Shown one piece after another: positions 4,082-62,790 of a stretch of 64,000 bases of DNA. The notes beneath the pieces were generated by a model. It did no database searches and was not told the origin of the DNA. It worked only from the letters and a program-made list of their open reading frames with translations. Both the position numbers and the translations under genes were made by a program. The stretch covers positions 1-64,000 of the forward strand of contig JANXAJ010000002.1 of NCBI GenBank assembly GCA_025062295.1. Reading direction: 5' to 3'. The stretch's first letter is position 1; every line of letters starts with the position of its first letter. The DNA is from Bacteroidia bacterium. Lineage in GTDB: Bacteria > Bacteroidota > Bacteroidia > SpSt-205.

Positions 4082-4517
4082 GTGAAACTATCTTCTGCCA
4101 TTCCTTCAAACAGAATTCCTCAGCCGCACGCATAGCTGCACACTGAGACTCTGTATGATCATCAAGCCCAAGAAGATGAAGAAGACCATGTACCAGCACC
4201 CGTCGCAACTCTTCCGAAAAAGAGACGCCATAGAGAGAAGCATTCATCCGAACTACCACTGGGGAAATAAAGATTTCTGCGCTCTCCCCATAGTCAAAAG
4301 TTAGGATGTCCGTAGGAACCTCCTCTGCAAGAAAGCGAGCATGAAGGTCAACAATTGTTTCTCGTGAAACGAAGTAGTAATGAACAGATTTTAGTACCCT
4401 ACCTGAGGCGAAGCACCGCCAGCATGTTTCTAGCCATATCCGATGTCGCCTACGCTGACGAAGCTCTGAATATCCTCCATGAAAATAGATTAGGGGCGAA
4501 ACCGCAATTCCACGCAT
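4056..4517 (-). CDS. ybeY: Endoribonuclease YbeY, rRNA maturation factor
   Basis: This 153-residue zinc-dependent RNase acts in 16S rRNA 3'-end maturation and ribosome quality control. The metal-binding signature [12 protein letters not shown] has the three histidines in HxxxHxxxxxH spacing, preceded by the conserved TDILTFDYG segment. The ATG at 4517 overlaps the end of the upstream ATPase gene by 28 bp, and its own end overlaps mnmG. It is a conserved neighbour of mnmG in many Bacteroidota. Confidence 0.95.
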
Positions 4518-4921
4518 CGTCCTCGCTCTTTGAATATGACTTCATCAGCTAAGTTCCTCATAAGAAATATCCCGCGTCCAGTTTCTCGGAGAAGATTCTC
4601 ACTCTCAGTTGGATCTGGCAAATTAGAGGGATCAAAACCCTCTCCTTCGTCCCGAACCTCCACCGTAAGGAGGTGGTCTTCAGGATTCCATACGAACCGA
4701 AGTTGAACCTGCTTCGCTGCTTCTTGCCGATTACCATGAAGGATGGCATTACTAATAGCCTCTGTAACAGCGACGATGAAAAGCGGGATTCTTTCTTCGG
4801 CAAAGCCCGCTGACCGAGCCACATCCATTAGAATGTCCTCCGCCCGAATAATCTCGTCCAGATGACTCCGAAGAAACTCCTCTCGGATGAATCCCTGAGA
4901 TATGAGCGATGAACTCATCAT
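4490..4921 (-). CDS. RsbW-type anti-sigma / Ser-Thr kinase ATPase (HATPase_c_2)
   Basis: This 143-residue single-domain GHKL ATPase has the N-box EAISNAILHGN, G1 box DEGEGFDP and G2 box GRGIFLM. It is the size and type of RsbW/SpoIIAB kinases that phosphorylate STAS antagonists and bind sigma factors or other partners. No STAS protein or sigma factor is encoded in the window, so the partner is unknown. The ATG at 4921 overlaps the stop of the DUF4175 gene as ATGA. The SpoIIE-type phosphatase at 8298 is a plausible functional counterpart, divergently encoded across the operon promoter. Confidence 0.88.
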   Translation of the reverse strand: MMSSSLISQGFIREEFLRSHLDEIIRAEDILMDVARSAGFAEERIPLFIVAVTEAISNAILHGNRQEAAKQVQLRFVWNPEDHLLTVEVRDEGEGFDPSNLPDPTESENLLRETGRGIFLMRNLADEVIFKERGRCVELRFRP

Positions 4922-8297: not shown

Positions 8298-9932
8298 ATG
8301 CCAACCTTCTGGGAGATAGTCAAGAACCTGTGGAACTCGCCAGTGCCCCAAGGAATAGAACCTAAACTCATGGAGCGGCTAGCCCAGAGCTTTCCCGTTC
8401 CAGTGCTGGTCATAAATGCGGAAAAAGATAGATTTGTGTGGGCAAGCCCTGGCTCGCTCTGGCTCACGGGATTATCTTTGGAGGAGATTCTCTCTATTTC
8501 TGCTCGGGATTATCTAAATACCTACTTTACTCCAGCCGAGACTATTTCTGGGCTTCTCCAAGGACAAGTCTCCCAAGCAGAAGTTTCTCTCTCCTACCGA
8601 AGGGGAACTGAGGTTCTCCAGTTTCTGGGCTTTTGGATTGAATTACAGGCAGGAACATATGCTCTTATTCTTCAGGATATAACCGAGCTCCGCCATGCTC
8701 AAGAAGAACTTGTACAATATGCTGAGGAGCTGCGCCAGCGAGTAGATACCCTTACAGAGCTAAAAGACTCTCTCCAGCGTGCAAATGAGAAGCTGAGAGA
8801 AACTCAAGAGCAATCACGACTTCTGGCAGCAGTCGCAGCTTATACCGACAATGCTGTCATCATTACGGACGTACAGGGGAAAATAATATGGGTCAATCGC
8901 GGTTTTGAGCGCCTCACAGGCTATACTTTAGAAGAAGTGAGAGGCAAAGTGCCCGGGCGAGTGCTGCAGGGACCTGATACAGATCCTGCTACAGTGAGTC
9001 GCATCCGAGAAAAACTACGGAAAAAAGAACCCTTTACAGAAGAGATACTAAACTATACTAAGGACGGCTCTCCCTACTGGCTGCGCCTCTATATTACCCC
9101 TCTTACAAACGACCTCAATGAGGTGACTCACTTTATAGCGATAGAGATGGATATCACAGAAGAAAAGCGGCGCCTAGAAGCCATGCAACAGCAGCTGGAA
9201 GACATAAGACGAGCTCAAGAATACGCAAGTCGAATCTTCAAGCGATTCCTAACCCCTCCAGACCTACTCCGAAGTTATTTCTCTGATGTGCAGATATGGA
9301 ATGAGCCCCTTGCAGCTCTTAGTGGAGATTTTTACTTTTTTGCTCCACAGGAAGGACAAGTCATAATAGCCTTAGGAGACAGTACGGGGCATGGAGCCGC
9401 TGCAGCCCTGATTAGTGTATATGCCCTTACCTCTCTCTGGAGGAGTACCCGCACATCTACTCAAACACTCCTCACTTTGTATGAAGACCTTTTGGAAGGG
9501 GTGATTCTGAGTGGAGAGCAACAAAGACACAAAGAAGGATTTGAATTAGCGCTTCTGCGATATGAGCCAGACTTGCGTCGGATGGAATTCATCGGGGCTC
9601 GGCGGTCGTTGTGGGTCTTTCGAGAAGGGCAGCTTCATGAGGTGCGTGGAATGCGCAGTGATGTTAGCCCCATCACTCCCCAGCTCCGTCCTGAACCGCA
9701 AACTCTGCGACTCCAGCCAGGAGATAGATTATACCTTTTTTCTGACGGATTGACTGACCAGCTCAATGTTGAAGGAAAGCGATTCTCGTCTCAGCGTTTG
9801 CGTAACTTCCTTCAAGTGAATCAGTACCTACCCCTCCCCGAACAGATTGACCTTCTCAAACAAGCCCTGAGTCAATGGCGAGGGCAAGCACCTCAAACAG
9901 ATGATATCCTTCTATTAGCCTTAGAGATATGA
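8298..9932 (+). CDS. PAS-PAS-SpoIIE serine phosphatase (RsbU-like)
   Basis: This 544-residue cytoplasmic protein has a PAS-like domain (about residues 20-130), a coiled-coil linker (130-175), a clear second PAS with PAC tail (175-290; NAVIITDVQGKIIWVNRGFERLTGY, then DITEEKRR), and a C-terminal SpoIIE/PP2C phosphatase (330-544). The metal-binding signatures are SGDFYFF, GDSTGHGAAAALIS, FSDGLTDQ and TDDILLLAL. Such proteins dephosphorylate STAS-domain antagonists in partner-switching pathways. No membrane segment is present. It stands alone, divergent from the RsbW-containing operon. No exact TAnnTTTG is found upstream; the nearest resemblance is TATTTTG around 8273. Confidence 0.9.
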   Translation: MPTFWEIVKNLWNSPVPQGIEPKLMERLAQSFPVPVLVINAEKDRFVWASPGSLWLTGLSLEEILSISARDYLNTYFTPAETISGLLQGQVSQAEVSLSYRRGTEVLQFLGFWIELQAGTYALILQDITELRHAQEELVQYAEELRQRVDTLTELKDSLQRANEKLRETQEQSRLLAAVAAYTDNAVIITDVQGKIIWVNRGFERLTGYTLEEVRGKVPGRVLQGPDTDPATVSRIREKLRKKEPFTEEILNYTKDGSPYWLRLYITPLTNDLNEVTHFIAIEMDITEEKRRLEAMQQQLEDIRRAQEYASRIFKRFLTPPDLLRSYFSDVQIWNEPLAALSGDFYFFAPQEGQVIIALGDSTGHGAAAALISVYALTSLWRSTRTSTQTLLTLYEDLLEGVILSGEQQRHKEGFELALLRYEPDLRRMEFIGARRSLWVFREGQLHEVRGMRSDVSPITPQLRPEPQTLRLQPGDRLYLFSDGLTDQLNVEGKRFSSQRLRNFLQVNQYLPLPEQIDLLKQALSQWRGQAPQTDDILLLALEI

Positions 9933-33594: not shown

Positions 33595-36500
33595 CTACTG
33601 AAAAGATTGTATGATCCGACGCAGCTCGTCAATTTCGTAGTCTTTTGCCTGAAGCTTCAATTCATAATCCTGGAGGACATCTAAAGGGGCGTAATTTTTG
33701 AGCCATTCTGCCTTGAGCATTTCGCATGCTTGAGCAGCAGGAAGAAGCACAGCCAAGTAGTGAGCTTCTTGGGGAAAGATGGCAAGAAAATATAGTTTCT
33801 CTTCTCCCTGAGCATCCTTATTAGTGAGAAAACCATACCATGGGTGTCCTCTCCCGATAGTAGCCCATAGATCCATAAATATAAAGTCTGGTGTATGGGG
33901 GCTGCGCAGCACACGGGCTGGCTGACCGATGAGCTTCTCGGGGGCATACCCAAGCATTTGCAGAAGGGATGGGCTCGCCGCTTGAATGACACCCTGCTTG
34001 TCTGTTAGGAACCACGGCAAGGTCTCCAAAGTCGGTTGATTTCGCTGTTCCAGCTGCCTAAGAGCTTCTTTGAGTCGCTGGGCTTGAACCTTCTGGCGAG
34101 TGATATCAAAGGCTACGCCGATATATTTATACGGTTTGCCCTCTGCATCTAAGACAGGAGTGATGGTCAAATGGACCCAGAAAAGGGTTCCATCTTTAGA
34201 TTTATTCTGAACCTCGCCTTGCCAGACAAAGCCGCTCTTAATGCGATCCCACATGCGCTCAAAAAACTTGGGCGGATGGACTTCACTTCGGATAATGCTA
34301 TGGGGCTGTCCGATGAGCTCTTCTCGGGTGTAGCCCCAGACGTAGGTAGCCTCGTCATTGACGAATGTAATGCGCCCTTCTGGATCGGTTTCAGAGACGA
34401 TAGCTGCGTTATTGAGGGCATTGATGCGTCCTGTGAGTTCTAACTGAGTCTCCAGAAGCTGAGCTTGAATTGCCTCTAACTGGCGAGCATAAGCGGAGAG
34501 AGAATGCTCTTTTTCTTGAGCTTCCTGAAGAAGAGCACGAATGCGTTCGGCCTGACGCTTCTGCGCTGTGATGTCAAAAGCAACCCCTATATACTTGAAG
34601 GGATGTCCTTCAGGATCGTAAATAGGGGTAACTGTGAGAATCTGCCAGAAAAGCTTTCCATCTTTTGATCTATTGAGGACCTCTGCCTGCCAGACCTGTC
34701 CCGCTCGCAAGCTCTGCCACATGTCAGCCCAAAACTCAGGAGGATGATGGTCACTTTTGAGAAAGCGCAGGTTACGCCCTACCACCTCCTCCCAAGTATA
34801 GCCCCATGCCTCTAATGCTGCTGCATTAGCATAGAGGAGATTCCCGTTTATATCGGTCTCCATCAGGTAAGCTGCATTCCCCACCGCTAAGATTTGTCCT
34901 CGCAGTTCGGCTTGAGCACGTCTTAGTTCTTCTGCATAAGAGCGTAATCTTTCTTCCTGTTCTATTTGCGGAGACAGATCAAAGCTCACGGCAATAAACT
35001 TGACAATACGCCCGCGAGTATCTAAGACAGGGGTGATTGTAGAACTTATCCAATAAAGGGAACCGTCCTTTCGCTGGTTACAAAAGATGCCTTTCCATAC
35101 CCGCTTTTCGTTCAGAGTCTTTCGAAGTTCCAGATAGAAAGCCTCATCATGTTTTCCTGATTTGAGGAGGGCATGAGTTTGTCCAAGAAGCTCTTCACGA
35201 GTATAACCGGAGATGGCGCAGAATGCATCGTTGACAAAAGTGATCCGTCCTTCGGGGTCTGTCTCTGCAACGATAGCTGCATTATTGACTGCACTAATCT
35301 GACCCCTTAGCTCCACTTGAGTACGACGCATCTCTTCTTGGGCTGCCTGAAGCTGCTGAGTATAAGCACGCAGCTCACGCTGTTGGGCTTGAGAGAGTTC
35401 CAGCGCTGCTCGCAGCTCCTCTTCCTGACGCTTCTGGGCGGTAATATCAAATCCTACACCGATGTACTTGAGTACTTTTCCCTCTGGACTTAAGACAGGC
35501 GTAATCGTCAAAAGAATCCAGTAGTAGTGTCCTGTTTTTGCTCGATTGCGGACTTCGCCCCTCCAGACTTCTCCCCGAGAGATGATGCGCCACATCTCCT
35601 CAAATAGCTCATCACTCTGATGTCCTGACTTGAGAATTCGATGATTTTGCCCTAAGACTTCCTCTGCTCGGTAGCCATACATTTGGAGGAAAAGCTCATT
35701 TACCCGAATGATGCGTCCTTGAAGATCAGTTTCAGAAACGATGGCTGCATTTCCGACAGCAGCGATTTGTCCTTTTAGTTCGGTTTGCGTTCGTAGGAGT
35801 TCTTCATTGAGGGCCTGCAGCTGCTGATTGGTCTCTCGCAACCGCTCCTCCTGAGAGAGAGTCTGCTCCAGCATGTAGCGCAGTTCCTCTTCCTGAGCTT
35901 TCTGTCGGGTAATGTCAAAACAGATGCCAATATACCCAGCGTTCGAAAGTCCCTCTAAAGGAGCGAAGGTAGCCTGAAGCCAGAAGATAGAGCCATGATT
36001 TGCTGTAAGGAGGGGAAGACTACCCTGCCAGATAACCCGCTGACGAAAACTTTCTCGGAGCGCCTGAGCCAACTCTGAGTCAGAGACAAGCTCGGTGAAG
36101 GGCCTTTCCCGAATTTTGCCTAAACTTAGACCGCTTGTTTCAAGAAATGCCTCATTTGCATAGAGGATGCGTCCCTGCCCATCCAGCTCCACTACAAGAG
36201 CTGCACTCCGAATGGCACTGATTTGACTGGCAAGCTGAGTTTGTGATTCAATCAGTTTCTGCTGAGCCTCCTCCATGAGCTGAGCACTGCGTAGCAATTC
36301 CGCCTGTTTTTCCTCTAAGACTTGACGGAGGGATTGCTCTTCTGAGAGGAGAGCTCTTAGCTTCTCTCTGGATATGAAGTTGGCAAGGGCAGCACCGATA
36401 TGCTCGCCTATTTTCTGCAAGAAGGGCTCAGCAGCAGGCGAAAAAGCCTCTAAGGCAGCTAATTCTACCACTCCATAGGCTTCATCTTGAAAGATGAGCG

Positions 36501-37551
36501 GGATAAGGAGGAGAGTGTGGGGAGGAGCTTCACCGAGCCCTGAGCGAAGACGCAAGTATCCCGCTGGTACAGGATGAATACGAAGCAAACGCTTCTCAGC
36601 AGCTGCCTGTCCGACAAATCCTTCCCCAAATCGAAAGCGGCGCTGAACGGCTTGAGAGAGATCATAGGCATAGGTTCCCACAAGGACAAGAGTGTCTTCC
36701 TCCCGAACGAAAAGAGCACCCATGTGAGCTCCTAATTCTCGGCACAAAAGGCCTATAGTTTTTTCAGCCAAATGGGGAATAGTCTGAGATTCCTTAAGGA
36801 TTTCACTGAAGGCAGCGAGGCTACGGATGGTTAAAGCTTGCTCAGATTGGGTATCCCATCTCTCCCGCAGAAGACTCTGAAGCCGGTGAAGTCGCTGTAT
36901 AAAAGGATGTTCCTCACTTGGAAGAGAGAACTCAACCTTTCCTTCAGTGAGAGAGCGTAGAAGGGTATCAAAAGCTTGCCATACCGCTCGGAGGCTCCGA
37001 AGAGACTCTACACCTTTCGCAGAGGCGGGAATGGGATGCTGCCATTCTCCCTGGCGCCACTGTTGAAGGACTGAGAGGGTTGCTTCATAAGAGAGGAGCC
37101 CTGTCTGATGAGCCCGATAGAGGAGAAATCCCCCTGCTAAGAAGCTGATTAGCGTTCCCACCCCTATACCGAGAAGCCAAAGGGTCATTTCGCGGCGTTG
37201 CTTCTCCTCCTCCGCTGATAATGAGTTCAATGCCTGACTTTCTATTCGGAAAAGGAGACTTTCAAGCCTGAGCCGATCCTCCTCTGTCTCTATGCCTTCA
37301 TTTATTCGACGAAGGAGAGACTCTATCTCCGCTCCCTCTGGAAGGAGCCGAAGCTTCCTTAGAAGCGAGTCCCCAATGAGACCCTCCTTTTGTACGGATT
37401 GATGGCGCAGTTCAGCTACTACTGCGAGCACACCTAAATGCCGCTCGGCCTCTTCGGCCCTAGAGCTGGCAATCCAGCCCACATACGCCATCGTACCCCC
37501 AATCAGATATATCAGACCTCCAATCAGAAATATGCTCCCCCAAATCCTCAT
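33595..37551 (-). CDS. Orphan membrane receptor with GAF and six PAS domains, no output domain
   Basis: This 1318-residue protein has TM1 (about 6-28), a periplasmic helical sensor, TM2 (about 124-146), a HAMP-like/coiled stretch, a GAF domain (about 260-395), then PAS domains near residues 450, 600, 757, 890, 1047 and 1180. Most have PAC tails ending in FDITAQKRQ and are joined by helical linkers of the form ELRGQIxAVxNAA. It ends in a short coiled coil. There is no histidine kinase, GGDEF, EAL, SpoIIE, MCP or DNA-binding domain. Its ATG overlaps the stop of the SPOR gene as ATGA. It presumably signals through protein contacts. Ligands are unknown. Confidence 0.85.
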   Translation of the reverse strand: MRIWGSIFLIGGLIYLIGGTMAYVGWIASSRAEEAERHLGVLAVVAELRHQSVQKEGLIGDSLLRKLRLLPEGAEIESLLRRINEGIETEEDRLRLESLLFRIESQALNSLSAEEEKQRREMTLWLLGIGVGTLISFLAGGFLLYRAHQTGLLSYEATLSVLQQWRQGEWQHPIPASAKGVESLRSLRAVWQAFDTLLRSLTEGKVEFSLPSEEHPFIQRLHRLQSLLRERWDTQSEQALTIRSLAAFSEILKESQTIPHLAEKTIGLLCRELGAHMGALFVREEDTLVLVGTYAYDLSQAVQRRFRFGEGFVGQAAAEKRLLRIHPVPAGYLRLRSGLGEAPPHTLLLIPLIFQDEAYGVVELAALEAFSPAAEPFLQKIGEHIGAALANFISREKLRALLSEEQSLRQVLEEKQAELLRSAQLMEEAQQKLIESQTQLASQISAIRSAALVVELDGQGRILYANEAFLETSGLSLGKIRERPFTELVSDSELAQALRESFRQRVIWQGSLPLLTANHGSIFWLQATFAPLEGLSNAGYIGICFDITRQKAQEEELRYMLEQTLSQEERLRETNQQLQALNEELLRTQTELKGQIAAVGNAAIVSETDLQGRIIRVNELFLQMYGYRAEEVLGQNHRILKSGHQSDELFEEMWRIISRGEVWRGEVRNRAKTGHYYWILLTITPVLSPEGKVLKYIGVGFDITAQKRQEEELRAALELSQAQQRELRAYTQQLQAAQEEMRRTQVELRGQISAVNNAAIVAETDPEGRITFVNDAFCAISGYTREELLGQTHALLKSGKHDEAFYLELRKTLNEKRVWKGIFCNQRKDGSLYWISSTITPVLDTRGRIVKFIAVSFDLSPQIEQEERLRSYAEELRRAQAELRGQILAVGNAAYLMETDINGNLLYANAAALEAWGYTWEEVVGRNLRFLKSDHHPPEFWADMWQSLRAGQVWQAEVLNRSKDGKLFWQILTVTPIYDPEGHPFKYIGVAFDITAQKRQAERIRALLQEAQEKEHSLSAYARQLEAIQAQLLETQLELTGRINALNNAAIVSETDPEGRITFVNDEATYVWGYTREELIGQPHSIIRSEVHPPKFFERMWDRIKSGFVWQGEVQNKSKDGTLFWVHLTITPVLDAEGKPYKYIGVAFDITRQKVQAQRLKEALRQLEQRNQPTLETLPWFLTDKQGVIQAASPSLLQMLGYAPEKLIGQPARVLRSPHTPDFIFMDLWATIGRGHPWYGFLTNKDAQGEEKLYFLAIFPQEAHYLAVLLPAAQACEMLKAEWLKNYAPLDVLQDYELKLQAKDYEIDELRRIIQSFQ
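34060..35960 (-). repeat. Tandem PAS-PAC coding repeats within the receptor gene
   Basis: Four units of about 400-470 bp encode PAS 2-5. Similarity is visible at nucleotide level around each NAAIVxETD block (near 34395, 35270 and 35740), pointing to internal duplication rather than independent recruitment of domains. Confidence 0.7.
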
Positions 37552-37991
37552 GGACGAAACACCCTATCAGGTACAATAAATGCGCCAGGAAACACCTTTC
37601 GGTACTGCTCCAGCCACGCCTCTGCTTCCTCCCGAGCGAGAAAGTCTCCGGCTCGAACCTTATAGAGAGGAGGATCGTAAAACATATAAACGCTCACGCT
37701 TGCAAAGTTTTCCAAGACATAAAATCGGAGAGAATCAGCTACTGCGCGTGAAGGGGTAGCTGCAAGCTGGACGCGAAAGCCGGGCAGCGTACTAGCAGTC
37801 TGATATTGCTGACGCACTTTTTCATAGAGTCTGCGAGTGAGAGGAGAGGGCCTCCACTCTACGCGAATAGGATGTGACTCTACCAGTCGCGGTTGCTCAG
37901 AAGAAGGAAGCGGATACACCCTATAAAGAGGACGGTATGATTCCCACTTTGATTGAGCTAAGAGTATCCCCAGAAAGCTTATCCATTTCAT
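37548..37991 (-). CDS. SPOR-domain protein
   Basis: This 147-residue protein, from the ATG at 37991, has a signal peptide (MKWISFLGILLAQS), a linker, and a C-terminal SPOR fold (GFRVQLAATPSRAVADSLRFYVLE... YKVRAGDFLAREEAEAWLEQYRKVFPGAFIV). SPOR domains bind denuded peptidoglycan, often at division sites, so a periplasmic cell-wall role is inferred. Start and stop overlap the flanking genes by 4 bp each (ATGA), making it tightly coupled to deoC and to the PAS receptor. The track start at 38042 is rejected. Confidence 0.85.
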   Translation of the reverse strand: MKWISFLGILLAQSKWESYRPLYRVYPLPSSEQPRLVESHPIRVEWRPSPLTRRLYEKVRQQYQTASTLPGFRVQLAATPSRAVADSLRFYVLENFASVSVYMFYDPPLYKVRAGDFLAREEAEAWLEQYRKVFPGAFIVPDRVFRP

Positions 37992-38629
37992 AAGGGAGTA
38001 GAAGTCCCAATCCGAGTAGCACCCGCTTGAATAAAAGCCCAAGCCGCTTCTGCGGTTCGGATCCCCCCAGAAGCCTTGATCCCAACCGAAGAGGGAAGGG
38101 AGGCTCGCATAAGCTGCACAGTCTCTAAGACAGCCCCTTTTTCAGCAAAACCCGTAGAAGTCTTGACGAAATCTACCCCAGCAGCAGCTGACCATTGACA
38201 TAACTCTTGAATCTGAGGAGGGCTCAGTAAGGCAGTCTCTATAATGACCTTCAAAAGAGCACCATCTTTATGAGACAAATCCACTAAGTGTTCTATTTCA
38301 GATCGGACATATTTTTCGTCTCCAGAGAAATAAGCTGCGAGATTGACGACCATGTCCAGCTCACTGGCACCCATTCGGAGGGCAAGCCGCGCCTCTGTGA
38401 TCTTCGTCTCGGTCAAATGCATTCCATGAGGGAATCCCACTACGGTAGCTACTCTTACTCCCGATCCATTTGTATAGGCGCAGGCCTGTGAAACAAAATA
38501 GGGAGGCACACAGACAGCTGCGTATCCCCTCTCTACTGCCTTCAAACAAAGAGCTCGGATATCCGATTGAGTACAGCCAGGACGCAAGAGAGTAAAATCT
38601 ATGAATCGGGCCAAATCAGGAAGATTCAT
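37988..38629 (-). CDS. deoC: Deoxyribose-phosphate aldolase
   Basis: This 213-residue TIM-barrel class I aldolase splits 2-deoxyribose 5-phosphate into glyceraldehyde 3-phosphate and acetaldehyde. The family motifs are FIDFTLLRPGCTQSDI, LDMVVNLAAYFSGD, the Schiff-base lysine region LLKVIIETALL, and the second lysine in FVKTSTGFAEKGA and GIKASGGIRT. The ATG at 38629 fits the family N-terminus; the track start at 38770 adds 47 unlikely residues. It overlaps the upstream dehydrogenase by 14 bp. Confidence 0.94.
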   Translation of the reverse strand: MNLPDLARFIDFTLLRPGCTQSDIRALCLKAVERGYAAVCVPPYFVSQACAYTNGSGVRVATVVGFPHGMHLTETKITEARLALRMGASELDMVVNLAAYFSGDEKYVRSEIEHLVDLSHKDGALLKVIIETALLSPPQIQELCQWSAAAGVDFVKTSTGFAEKGAVLETVQLMRASLPSSVGIKASGGIRTAEAAWAFIQAGATRIGTSTPL

Positions 38630-59454: not shown

Positions 59455-62400
59455 ATGCAGTCACATAAGTTACTCCTGCTACTTTTCACAGGTTGGATGG
59501 CTGGTCAAAGCTGGTGTGGGACGCTCATGCCACCCCCTCTTCCCCCGTCGTTTTTTCATTCGCCTAGAACAGGTGTAGCGCGAACAGGATGGCCGGATAC
59601 GAGCTGTCGTCCCCATGCGCAGTATGTGGTGCCTGTAGTTTTTCATGTTATCCATTCAGGCGGAGTTGATAGTATTCCGCTCTCTGCAATAGAGACGCAA
59701 ATGGAGAGGCTCTTTGAGGACATGCGTCGCATCCCCGAGACACGCGGCTTTACGCCTCACGCTACAGACATGGAGGTGGAATTTGCCCTGGCCACAAAAG
59801 ACCCAAATGGGCAACCAACGACAGGCGTCGTTTACTGGCGCTATGATCAGCCGCCGCTAAGCTGGCCTGAGCCAAAGCTCTGTGTAGTAACGAACGAATT
59901 GAACATGAAAAATGCCACAGCATGGCCAAGAGATAAATATCTAAATATCTGGATCGTACCTCAGATATGTGAGTACTATGGGAGTAGCGATTGTGATGAC
60001 TGTAATGATGCCATAGGCTATGCCTACTTCCCCTCTACAGATCCTGCCTACCTTCCCTATTTTGGCACAGTCCAAGAGTATTCCACGATAGGTGACGAGG
60101 ATGGAATCAATCCTCGGCGCAGCCGGGTATTGGTTCATGAACTTGGACATAACCTCAGCCTTGCTCATACCTTTAATGAGGGATGTGACTCTACCTCAGA
60201 TTGTGAGAATGAGGGGGATTACATTTGCGACACTCCGCCTACCGCTGAGCCTAATTATCAATTTAGGCAGCAGAATACCTGCTCTACTGATGTGCCCGAC
60301 CGTCCTGACGAGACAAGGAACTACATGGACTACACCCCCTCTTATCTCATGTGTCTATTTACAGAAGGTCAAAAAGCGGCGGCGACTTGGTGGCTCTCAC
60401 ACCCCAACTCCTACTATGCACCTTTGACCCAGTCCAGTAATCTCCAAGCCACGGGTACGGGACCTTATGGGCGAGTCCGTGTGCGGTTTTGGGCAGAAAG
60501 CCATCGAGTTCTCGTAGGAACGCCTGTCCGATTCCACGCAGTAACAGAGGGACAGCCCCACCTCTACATTTGGGACTTCAGCGGCGGCATAGCAGATGAT
60601 CCGTCCTCTCCCTGCCCTACAGTTACCTTTCCAGCTGCAGGAGTGTATAGCGTGCAGCTTATCGCTGAAAATCTTAGCGGACGCCGAGATACGGCCTTCA
60701 AAGCAAATTACATCGTGGTTGAGGATGCTATTCTGAGTCTCCCTTATACAGAAGACTGGGAAGGAGGCATACCTCCCCACATCACTATAGAGAACTTAGA
60801 TGCCGGCTATCCTTTGAGTCGGACATGGGAGACTTACCCAGCAGGAGCTTATGGACTCTCCGACAACTGTATAAACATTAATTATCTAAATCACCCACTC
60901 TATGGAGAGCGAGATTACTTGACCACCCCAGCTTTCCAAATGCCAGAAGCAACCACCCATCGGGCTTTTCTCATCTTCTCTGTAAGCTATACTTGCTTAG
61001 ATTGGAGTGATGCGAATTCGTTCCTCCTTCGGTATGGTGATACGCTTCGGGTTTGGGTTTCACCCGATGGAGGGGGACATTGGGAGCTTCTGTATGAGAA
61101 AGGCGGAATAGACCTCAGCACCTTTCCTAATGGATGCAGGTCTTACTATGGCAATCTAAATGGCGCAGACCTACCCCCCCTCCATTGGCGAACCGATACA
61201 ATTCCCCTTACGAACTATTTAGGATTAGCAGGGGTTCGGTTCCGATTTGAGGCTGTAGCCGGCGGAGGGGGAAGAATATTCATAGATGATATTCGGATAG
61301 AGAAAGTGCTACTTGGCGAGCGTATAGAGGACCCTTATGAACTCACACCACTTCTTTTCTCAAATCCACAGACTCATGGCACCTACCAGCATTGGCATTA
61401 TAGCCTCGTAGATTCCACCCGAAACCGCTCTAATGATCATGCTCTCAATACAGGTCCTGATCTCGTATGGCGACTCATTTTGCCCGAGTGTTTGGATAGC
61501 CTTATCCTGCACTTTGCCTACAAAGATGAAGGACAGGATGGTATCATACCGCACAATCATAAGGTATTTATCATCAATACCACAAGCAGCGATACAATAG
61601 AACTCCTTGAAAATTCATACGACAGTTATATGCATGCTTGGGCGCAGGCTCGGAACTGGGTGGTGGGCTTTGCGGATCGCGGCCCTGGCACTGCCTACAT
61701 CTCTGGAAGCGAGCATTCTATGAAGCACCGACAAGGAACTGGACTTGGATCCGAAGCTCCCTTTCTTGACAGCCTGCGACTCGCCTCAGGTGATACCCTT
61801 TACATAATTTACACTCATGACAATAGTGTGGCAGAGGGCGTGGATAGCTTTTATCTAGAGATTCATGCTCTTAAGAACCTTGTGCCCACCTCACTTTCTC
61901 CATTCGTAGAAGTTACTCCCACCTCTGAGGGAGATGGGTGTATGGGAGACTCTATTCAGGTAAGTTATACTCTTTCTATGCATGGAGGTGTAGGTGTTGA
62001 GAGATACTTAATAGAAATGAATGAGCTCTATAACAATGTAGTCGTAGGGCAAACAGCATGGGAAAGTTTTACCCCTACAGGGACATTGAAGCGCAGACCT
62101 GTTTCTCGTAGCGGTTCTACTTTGAATCAAGGGTATCTTGCTTATACTCAGCAGTGGAAAGTGCGAGGTCGCCTTATTCATTCACGGTATTCTACATGCT
62201 ATGACACCTCAGCTACTACCGAGGTAGAGGTTGGATTGGACCTTCCGGTTCGTCCAATTCCTCGGATTCGGCATCAAAATACCAGTTATGGCAATGGAGC
62301 GGTCCTTACGCTTTCCCAAGGGCAGAATGTTACTTTTACTGCTATTGAACGTGAGGGAATTGCTCCAGCCATTCTTAGCCATACCTGGTATCTCAATGGG

Positions 62401-62790
62401 TCACTTGTAGGCACAGCTCCGACCCTAACCATAAATGTGCCGCGTGATACTTCTAACCTTGAACTCACGATCCTCAATACCTCTCGGAGTGCTCCTCAGT
62501 GCGATTCAACTATTCGGATAAGGCTTATTCTTCCCTTCTCTACCTCTTTGCCTGAGAGAGGTATAGTGCCCCTCGTGCGCACCGAAAATGGTCGCCCTGG
62601 GGTATGGATTACCCTTCCTCTTCCTGGAGTTTATCAGATCAAGATTTACGATCGCATAGGTAGACTGTGCCTTGAGAGCCGCTCACGAGGAGGAGAGGAG
62701 ACCTTCTATCCTCTTCCAGCGGGACTTTATTTACTTGTGATTGAAGGCGAGCACTCCTTCTATAGACGCCCTTTGCTGATAGCATACTAA
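59455..62790 (+). CDS. Secreted M43-type metalloprotease with PKD and T9SS sorting domains
   Basis: This 1111-residue protein has a signal peptide (LLLLLFTGWMAGQSWCG) and a pappalysin/cytophagalysin-like protease domain (about 60-320). The zinc motif is HELGHNLSLAH near residue 228, a cysteine-rich calcium-type loop follows, and the Met-turn is NYMDYTPSYLMCLF. Next come a PKD-like domain (about 340-425; HLYIWDFSGG, FPAAGVYSVQLIAEN), a MAM-like beta-sandwich (about 430-620), further beta domains, and a C-terminal type IX sorting domain (GVYQIKIYDRIGRLCLESR... LPAGLYLLVIEG). It should cross the outer membrane by the type IX system and be retained or released extracellularly. Confidence 0.92.
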   Translation: MQSHKLLLLLFTGWMAGQSWCGTLMPPPLPPSFFHSPRTGVARTGWPDTSCRPHAQYVVPVVFHVIHSGGVDSIPLSAIETQMERLFEDMRRIPETRGFTPHATDMEVEFALATKDPNGQPTTGVVYWRYDQPPLSWPEPKLCVVTNELNMKNATAWPRDKYLNIWIVPQICEYYGSSDCDDCNDAIGYAYFPSTDPAYLPYFGTVQEYSTIGDEDGINPRRSRVLVHELGHNLSLAHTFNEGCDSTSDCENEGDYICDTPPTAEPNYQFRQQNTCSTDVPDRPDETRNYMDYTPSYLMCLFTEGQKAAATWWLSHPNSYYAPLTQSSNLQATGTGPYGRVRVRFWAESHRVLVGTPVRFHAVTEGQPHLYIWDFSGGIADDPSSPCPTVTFPAAGVYSVQLIAENLSGRRDTAFKANYIVVEDAILSLPYTEDWEGGIPPHITIENLDAGYPLSRTWETYPAGAYGLSDNCININYLNHPLYGERDYLTTPAFQMPEATTHRAFLIFSVSYTCLDWSDANSFLLRYGDTLRVWVSPDGGGHWELLYEKGGIDLSTFPNGCRSYYGNLNGADLPPLHWRTDTIPLTNYLGLAGVRFRFEAVAGGGGRIFIDDIRIEKVLLGERIEDPYELTPLLFSNPQTHGTYQHWHYSLVDSTRNRSNDHALNTGPDLVWRLILPECLDSLILHFAYKDEGQDGIIPHNHKVFIINTTSSDTIELLENSYDSYMHAWAQARNWVVGFADRGPGTAYISGSEHSMKHRQGTGLGSEAPFLDSLRLASGDTLYIIYTHDNSVAEGVDSFYLEIHALKNLVPTSLSPFVEVTPTSEGDGCMGDSIQVSYTLSMHGGVGVERYLIEMNELYNNVVVGQTAWESFTPTGTLKRRPVSRSGSTLNQGYLAYTQQWKVRGRLIHSRYSTCYDTSATTEVEVGLDLPVRPIPRIRHQNTSYGNGAVLTLSQGQNVTFTAIEREGIAPAILSHTWYLNGSLVGTAPTLTINVPRDTSNLELTILNTSRSAPQCDSTIRIRLILPFSTSLPERGIVPLVRTENGRPGVWITLPLPGVYQIKIYDRIGRLCLESRSRGGEETFYPLPAGLYLLVIEGEHSFYRRPLLIAY

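Follow-up and report, generated by a model that had tools for sequence, protein, structure and literature searches.

Architecture of the output-less receptor

The window analyzed here comprises 64,000 nucleotides (positions 1 to 64,000 of contig JANXAJ010000002.1, assembly GCA_025062295.1) from a bacterium belonging to a group of uncultured Bacteroidia represented by metagenome-assembled genomes. A hot-spring origin can be read from the isolate names. On the minus strand, positions 33595..37551 hold an open reading frame (ORF) that starts with ATG and encodes a membrane receptor of 1318 amino acids (aa) that contains six PAS domains but lacks an output domain. Comparison with related genomes suggests that this receptor serves a phosphatase-based switch associated with CheR and CheB and encoded on another contig. 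Genome-wide statements rest on six-frame searches, and all coordinates in this section refer to the minus strand.

An earlier note on this DNA described two transmembrane (TM) helices, a GAF domain, and six PAS domains without a catalytic output, and hydropathy and Pfam searches agree on each of these points. The TM helices fall at about aa 6–25 (37477..37536) and aa 122–145 (37117..37188), with roughly 95 aa between them. A GAF_2 match follows at aa 257–389 (36385..36783; E 9.6e-16; 79% identity across the genus) and belongs to the same GAF family as that of CheR-linked receptors and hybrid kinases. A long helical linker (aa 396–452; 36196..36366; 83% identity) then leads into six PAS stretches (PAS_9, E 3.5e-96). 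Pfam detects no kinase, cyclase, phosphatase, or methyl-accepting chemotaxis protein (MCP) domain in the receptor, including neither the HisKA-HATPase_c pair of histidine and hybrid kinases nor MCPsignal (PF00015).

PAS1 (aa 453–552; 35896..36195) is the least conserved of the six. A structural model spanning GAF to PAS2, of moderate confidence (mean predicted local distance difference test score, pLDDT, 66), contains continuous helices of 79 and 55 residues between GAF and PAS1 and between PAS1 and PAS2, respectively. PAS6 (aa 1178–1265; 33757..34020) is divergent in sequence and is modeled as a confident PAS fold (pLDDT about 90). The C-terminal tail (aa 1266–1318; 33598..33756) carries no known domain and is modeled as two less certain helices (pLDDT 57–77). 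The end proposed to be a short coiled coil is thus helical in the model, and a coiled coil only putatively. At 62% identity, the tail belongs to the less conserved stretches of the protein, and the idea of a conserved docking tail was rejected.

PAS2 to PAS5 and their linkers share 42–52% aa identity with one another. The repetition is visible in the DNA as families D1–D3 (63–74% identity, 468/405-nt spacing), in line with the internal duplication described previously. In a phylogeny of the individual repeats, sequences from different species group by repeat position, one clade for each (support 93–100), which dates the duplications to before the genus. PAS3 and PAS5 cluster, with moderate support, with repeats of a relative from genome G059 introduced below.

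The residues W, H, and N have been described as the FAD-binding set of PAS domains (PMC10468136, PMC9668731). PAS2 (aa 599–706; 35434..35757) has MmoS PAS-A (100 bits; best solved relative, 3ewk), Aer, and NifL as its nearest relatives, and its H637/W654/N669 set is invariant in ten orthologs. PAS5 (aa 1046–1153; 34093..34416) carries H1084/W1101/N1116; the three residues are present in the window species and most sister species and lost in two. PAS3 (aa 753–861; 34969..35295) retains H793 and N825, with R replacing in the window species the F-helix W found in most sisters. The FAD-site H is missing from PAS4 (aa 890–996; 34564..34884) and PAS6. Since the FAD-type residues are kept in PAS2 and PAS5, both domains look FAD-binding and a redox input is likely. 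PAS4 was considered as a LOV photoreceptor and rejected, as Leu928 occupies the place of the adduct Cys in its otherwise LOV-like sequence.

Conservation and relatives

Orthologs of the receptor occur in ten further species of the genus and in one sister genus, at 64–78% identity to the window protein. Eight of them (G002–G009, the window copy not counted) are full length within one contig, and those of G010 and G011 are 3' parts. Wherever the 3' end is present, in eleven copies altogether, the stops fall no more than a few residues apart, and the order of domains is the same in the sister species and the sister genus. The stop codon, which the earlier note wished to see confirmed, is therefore genuine, terminating at the matching position in G002–G011. 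A frameshift or a lost downstream kinase is ruled out on the same grounds. The search for kinase-bearing homologs led to the same point: the receptor's nearest relatives either lack an output as well or terminate in SpoIIE, and none of them ends in a histidine kinase (HK). The premise that the protein lacks an output and would have to act through protein contact is hence well founded in its first half, while the contact itself is presumptive.

Conservation along the protein is uneven. The membrane and extracytoplasmic part is only 31% identical across the genus, compared with 74–88% for PAS2 to PAS5 and 76–91% for the linkers cc1–cc5, with the maximum in the linker before PAS3. Judged from these alignments, this is the pattern of a variable outside and a strongly constrained inside that includes the interdomain helices.

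Matches to the receptor GAF region across the class often adjoin a CheR gene. The closest case is a TM-GAF-9PAS protein of 1855 aa from another family, in G059 (locus L067), which forms a reciprocal best hit with the window receptor (39% identity over 1131 aa). It is likewise output-less and is followed directly, on one strand, by CheR, CheB, and a GAF-PAS-SpoIIE protein. Shorter output-less receptors of the TM-HAMP-GAF(-PAS) type, with 875, 598, and 596 aa in G027, G038, and G053, respectively, stand in clusters with CheR, SpoIIE, SiaB, and SiaC. Small receptors of relatives with the same cluster type range from 456 to 598 aa and have no PAS domain called by Pfam. Two to five further output-less receptors occur in each of G026, G053, and G125, on other contigs or far from a CheR locus that carries the same SpoIIE-Sia set. 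By analogy, such scattering is an MCP-like layout.

Among 26 sampled families with a stand-alone CheR locus, output-less receptors were found in all six with a CheR-linked SpoIIE set and in none of the 20 with other CheR loci (Fisher p 4e-6). These 20 mostly have GAF-HK hybrids with receiver (REC) domains. Most of the remaining families whose CheR stands alone fuse the same HAMP-GAF input to HK-REC-REC-REC and have REC-HK proteins or CheB-REC-SpoIIE fusions as partners. The comparison is not fully independent, as five of the six positive families contributed members to the receptor profile; G026 is the independent one. Domain calls at CheR loci came from small local profiles, with receptors and key partners re-checked against Pfam.

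Fused forms indicate which output the module can serve. In G048 (L179), a TM-HAMP-GAF-SpoIIE fusion precedes SiaB, SiaB, and SiaC, and G026 encodes a HAMP-GAF-PAS-SpoIIE fusion scoring 338 bits against the receptor profile. These fusions show the receptor module to be capable of driving SpoIIE. The output-less form is nonetheless an established architecture, since it is found in six families and, in some, several times per genome.

As a separate observation, a 452-aa output-less protein encoded at 4293–5651 of contig C12 (L042) in the window's own genome, and also in the sister species, is matched by the receptor GAF profile without a Pfam match of its own. It may be a second receptor of the Che-Sia system.

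The CheR-CheB-SpoIIE-Sia operon and the proposed role of the receptor

Every genome of the genus encodes exactly one CheR, with CheB adjoining. In the window genome the operon lies on contig C5 (L121, 5719–12285), in the order CheR-CheB-PEBP-[TM-GAF-PAS-PAS-SpoIIE]-SiaB-SiaC-SiaB-SiaC, and it is conserved in the genus. CheB has no receiver domain. The phosphatase retains the metal-site motifs GGDF and VDCTGHG; its match to the SiaA equivalog is confined to the PP2C part and scores 193 bits (cut-off 700). The SiaC proteins score 144.5 and 142 bits against PF09345 (cut-off 24.5), under the Pseudomonas equivalog cut-off, and the SiaB copies score 170 and 73 bits against NF038262 (cut-off 85). SiaC occurs in 91 of 149 genomes of the class, so its mere presence says little and was rejected as evidence for a switch; only the linkage to CheR is telling. 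Beyond the Sia genes, at 2123–2686 of L121, lies a gene whose product combines a STAS domain with a long acidic tail rich in Asp, Glu, and Trp. It is present in sister species too and is a possible further element of the partner switch.

Neither MCPsignal nor CheW domains were detected in the 13 genomes searched, with seven control genomes positive for both. The lack of any CheW-domain protein implies that no standard CheA is present, and an MCP identity for the receptor was rejected, as MCPsignal is missing both from the protein and from the 13 genomes.

We favor, with a probability of about 0.6, the view that the window protein is an operon-detached receptor of a CheA-free, CheR/CheB-associated partner switch of the SiaABC type, signaling by contact. 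Its assignment to the switch is comparative, drawn from where related receptors are encoded. Signals would enter at the membrane part, the GAF domain, and several PAS domains, with PAS2 and PAS5 as probable FAD-bound reporters of the redox state. They would then travel along the continuous helices joining the domains, changing the conformation of the receptor rod. Output would be delivered in trans, with the receptor setting the activity of a SpoIIE-type PP2C phosphatase through contact. The most likely partner is the TM-GAF-PAS-PAS-SpoIIE protein of the genome's only CheR-CheB operon, because the output-less receptors of relatives sit beside CheR-CheB-SpoIIE. This phosphatase is predicted to dephosphorylate SiaC, which SiaB-type kinases would phosphorylate, as in Pseudomonas SiaABC. 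CheR and CheB may act on the receptor, the phosphatase, or both as an adaptation system that adjusts gain by methylation, since an orphan CheR/CheB pair in a genome without MCPs needs a substrate. What the comparison leaves to inference is the physical contact and which way control runs, the methylation, the redox input, and the target downstream of SiaC.

Several observations weigh against this assignment. The receptor gene does not adjoin the Che-Sia operon in its own genus and is unlinked even in the single-contig genome G006. No SiaB or SiaC lies beside the CheR operon of G059, and SiaC is common in the class in any case. The 2-Mb window genome offers 15 SpoIIE phosphatases, counted by domain, and the receptor PAS repeats are closer to those of the phosphatases on contigs C66 and C73 than to the CheR-linked one. 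Methylation motifs of the MCP type are not enriched in the receptor linkers (1 found versus 1.5 expected).

The receptor might instead pair, as a PAS-PAS heterodimer or as a scaffold, with one of these other phosphatases. All proteins of the genome with related PAS arrays are indeed SpoIIE phosphatases: the one on C66 (160 bits) shares 41% identity over receptor aa 549–798 and a near-identical linker, and the C73 pair follows at 118–126 bits. Such a partnership appears unlikely to us, however, as no gene linkage to these phosphatases was seen in any genome, whereas the G059 ortholog and, in other genomes, shorter receptors show linkage to the CheR operon. The earlier note had singled out the PAS-SpoIIE phosphatase at position 8298 of the window. 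The idea of a SpoIIE partner pointed the right way, but a special link to this particular protein is weak: it ranks only fourth among the paralogs (72 bits), shares 31% identity over 182 aa, and has a PAS that branches outside the clades of the six receptor repeats, on a long branch and among the most distant. Regardless of this question, the C73 genes themselves (L039, 6191–8696) form a tandem of Aer-like PAS-SpoIIE proteins. The SpoIIE domain of the first is degenerate, lacking the metal-site motifs and falling under the Pfam cut-off; it is possibly a pseudophosphatase beside an active twin.

A function encoded next to the receptor gene, in the cell envelope or in sugar-phosphate metabolism, could also be its target. 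In the window and in all sister species examined, the stop codon of a SPOR-domain gene (37548..38042, minus strand) and the start of the receptor gene share 4 nt (ATGA/GTGA), an arrangement suggestive of translational coupling; in seven cases an iPGM gene overlaps or directly follows the receptor downstream. Yet these neighbors are housekeeping genes without signaling domains, and the G059 ortholog has Che genes beside it and none of these neighbors, which renders control of a local function improbable. Even less credit is due to the notion that an ancestral fusion to SpoIIE or a kinase shed its output and now serves as a sensory sink or decoy. The module does occur in relatives fused to SpoIIE (G048, G026) or HK-REC, but the GAF domain, linkers, and PAS2 to PAS5 are conserved at 74–91% across the genus with the same end, and output-less forms recur in multiple copies and families. 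On balance, the CheR-linked switch is the preferred destination of the signal.

Elsewhere in the window, positions 59455–62790 encode a secreted-type M43 metalloprotease with a PKD domain, and a 1085-aa ORF at 4918–8175 matches no Pfam family over the cut-off.

Comparison with known systems

The wider picture, which we put forward tentatively, is a chemosensory system that dispenses with CheA, CheW, and MCPs, in which dispersed output-less GAF/PAS receptors, adapted by CheR/CheB, would act directly on a PP2C phosphatase and thereby on SiaB/SiaC, the six-PAS protein being a redox receptor. CheR/CheB near hybrid kinases and SiaABC are both known; their combination with output-less receptors would be the new part. 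The open-access literature searched yielded no description of a link between CheR/CheB and either SiaABC or output-less GAF/PAS receptors. If methylation and control of the phosphatase were shown, this would represent a new kind of chemosensory system. Receptor methylation and CheA output would then be separable modules, even though chemotaxis-type receptors are usually thought to serve CheA. Moreover, Bacteroidota proteins consisting of PAS and GAF domains only, annotated as sensors without function, would gain a testable partner.

CheR/CheB genes beside hybrid histidine kinases have already been noted (PMC5108060), and many CheR loci in the present survey are of this kind. They share the HAMP-GAF input and the CheR-CheB neighborhood; the difference is that those kinases carry HisKA-HATPase-REC where the receptor carries nothing. 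On the input side, PAS2 resembles the FAD-PAS domains of NifL, MmoS, and Aer in sequence, and both PAS2 and PAS5 retain the W, H, and N, with the cofactor predicted in the present case. Unlike NifL and Aer, the receptor has no NifL kinase-like part and no MCP part. A NifL identity was rejected, because the equivalog score of 320 exceeds the cut-off of 242 only by summing five PAS copies, the best stretch covering profile positions 20–126 of 494. Automatic annotation could therefore misname the receptor NifL, as the NCBIfam model is exceeded through summed PAS repeats.

MCPs with CheR/CheB are comparable in being membrane receptors without enzyme activity, several of them unlinked per genome in some relatives, and in combining one CheR and CheB with long helical signaling parts and an Aer-type FAD-PAS input. 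They differ in that the genomes searched contain no MCPsignal or CheW, no methylation motif stands out in the receptor, and a phosphatase would serve as output.

The SiaABC partner switch of Pseudomonas consists of a phosphatase, the SiaB kinase, and SiaC (PMC7647112). The operon described here shares with the P. aeruginosa system a PP2C phosphatase, SiaB, and SiaC, and in both the phosphatase side has a membrane HAMP input; SiaC matches at the Pfam level, one SiaB exceeds the family cut-off, and the phosphatase stays far below the SiaA equivalog. The cluster additionally contains CheR and CheB, carries two copies each of SiaB and SiaC, and has no SiaD. The P. aeruginosa sensor is part of SiaA (PMC7647112), whereas here separate output-less receptors would be added.

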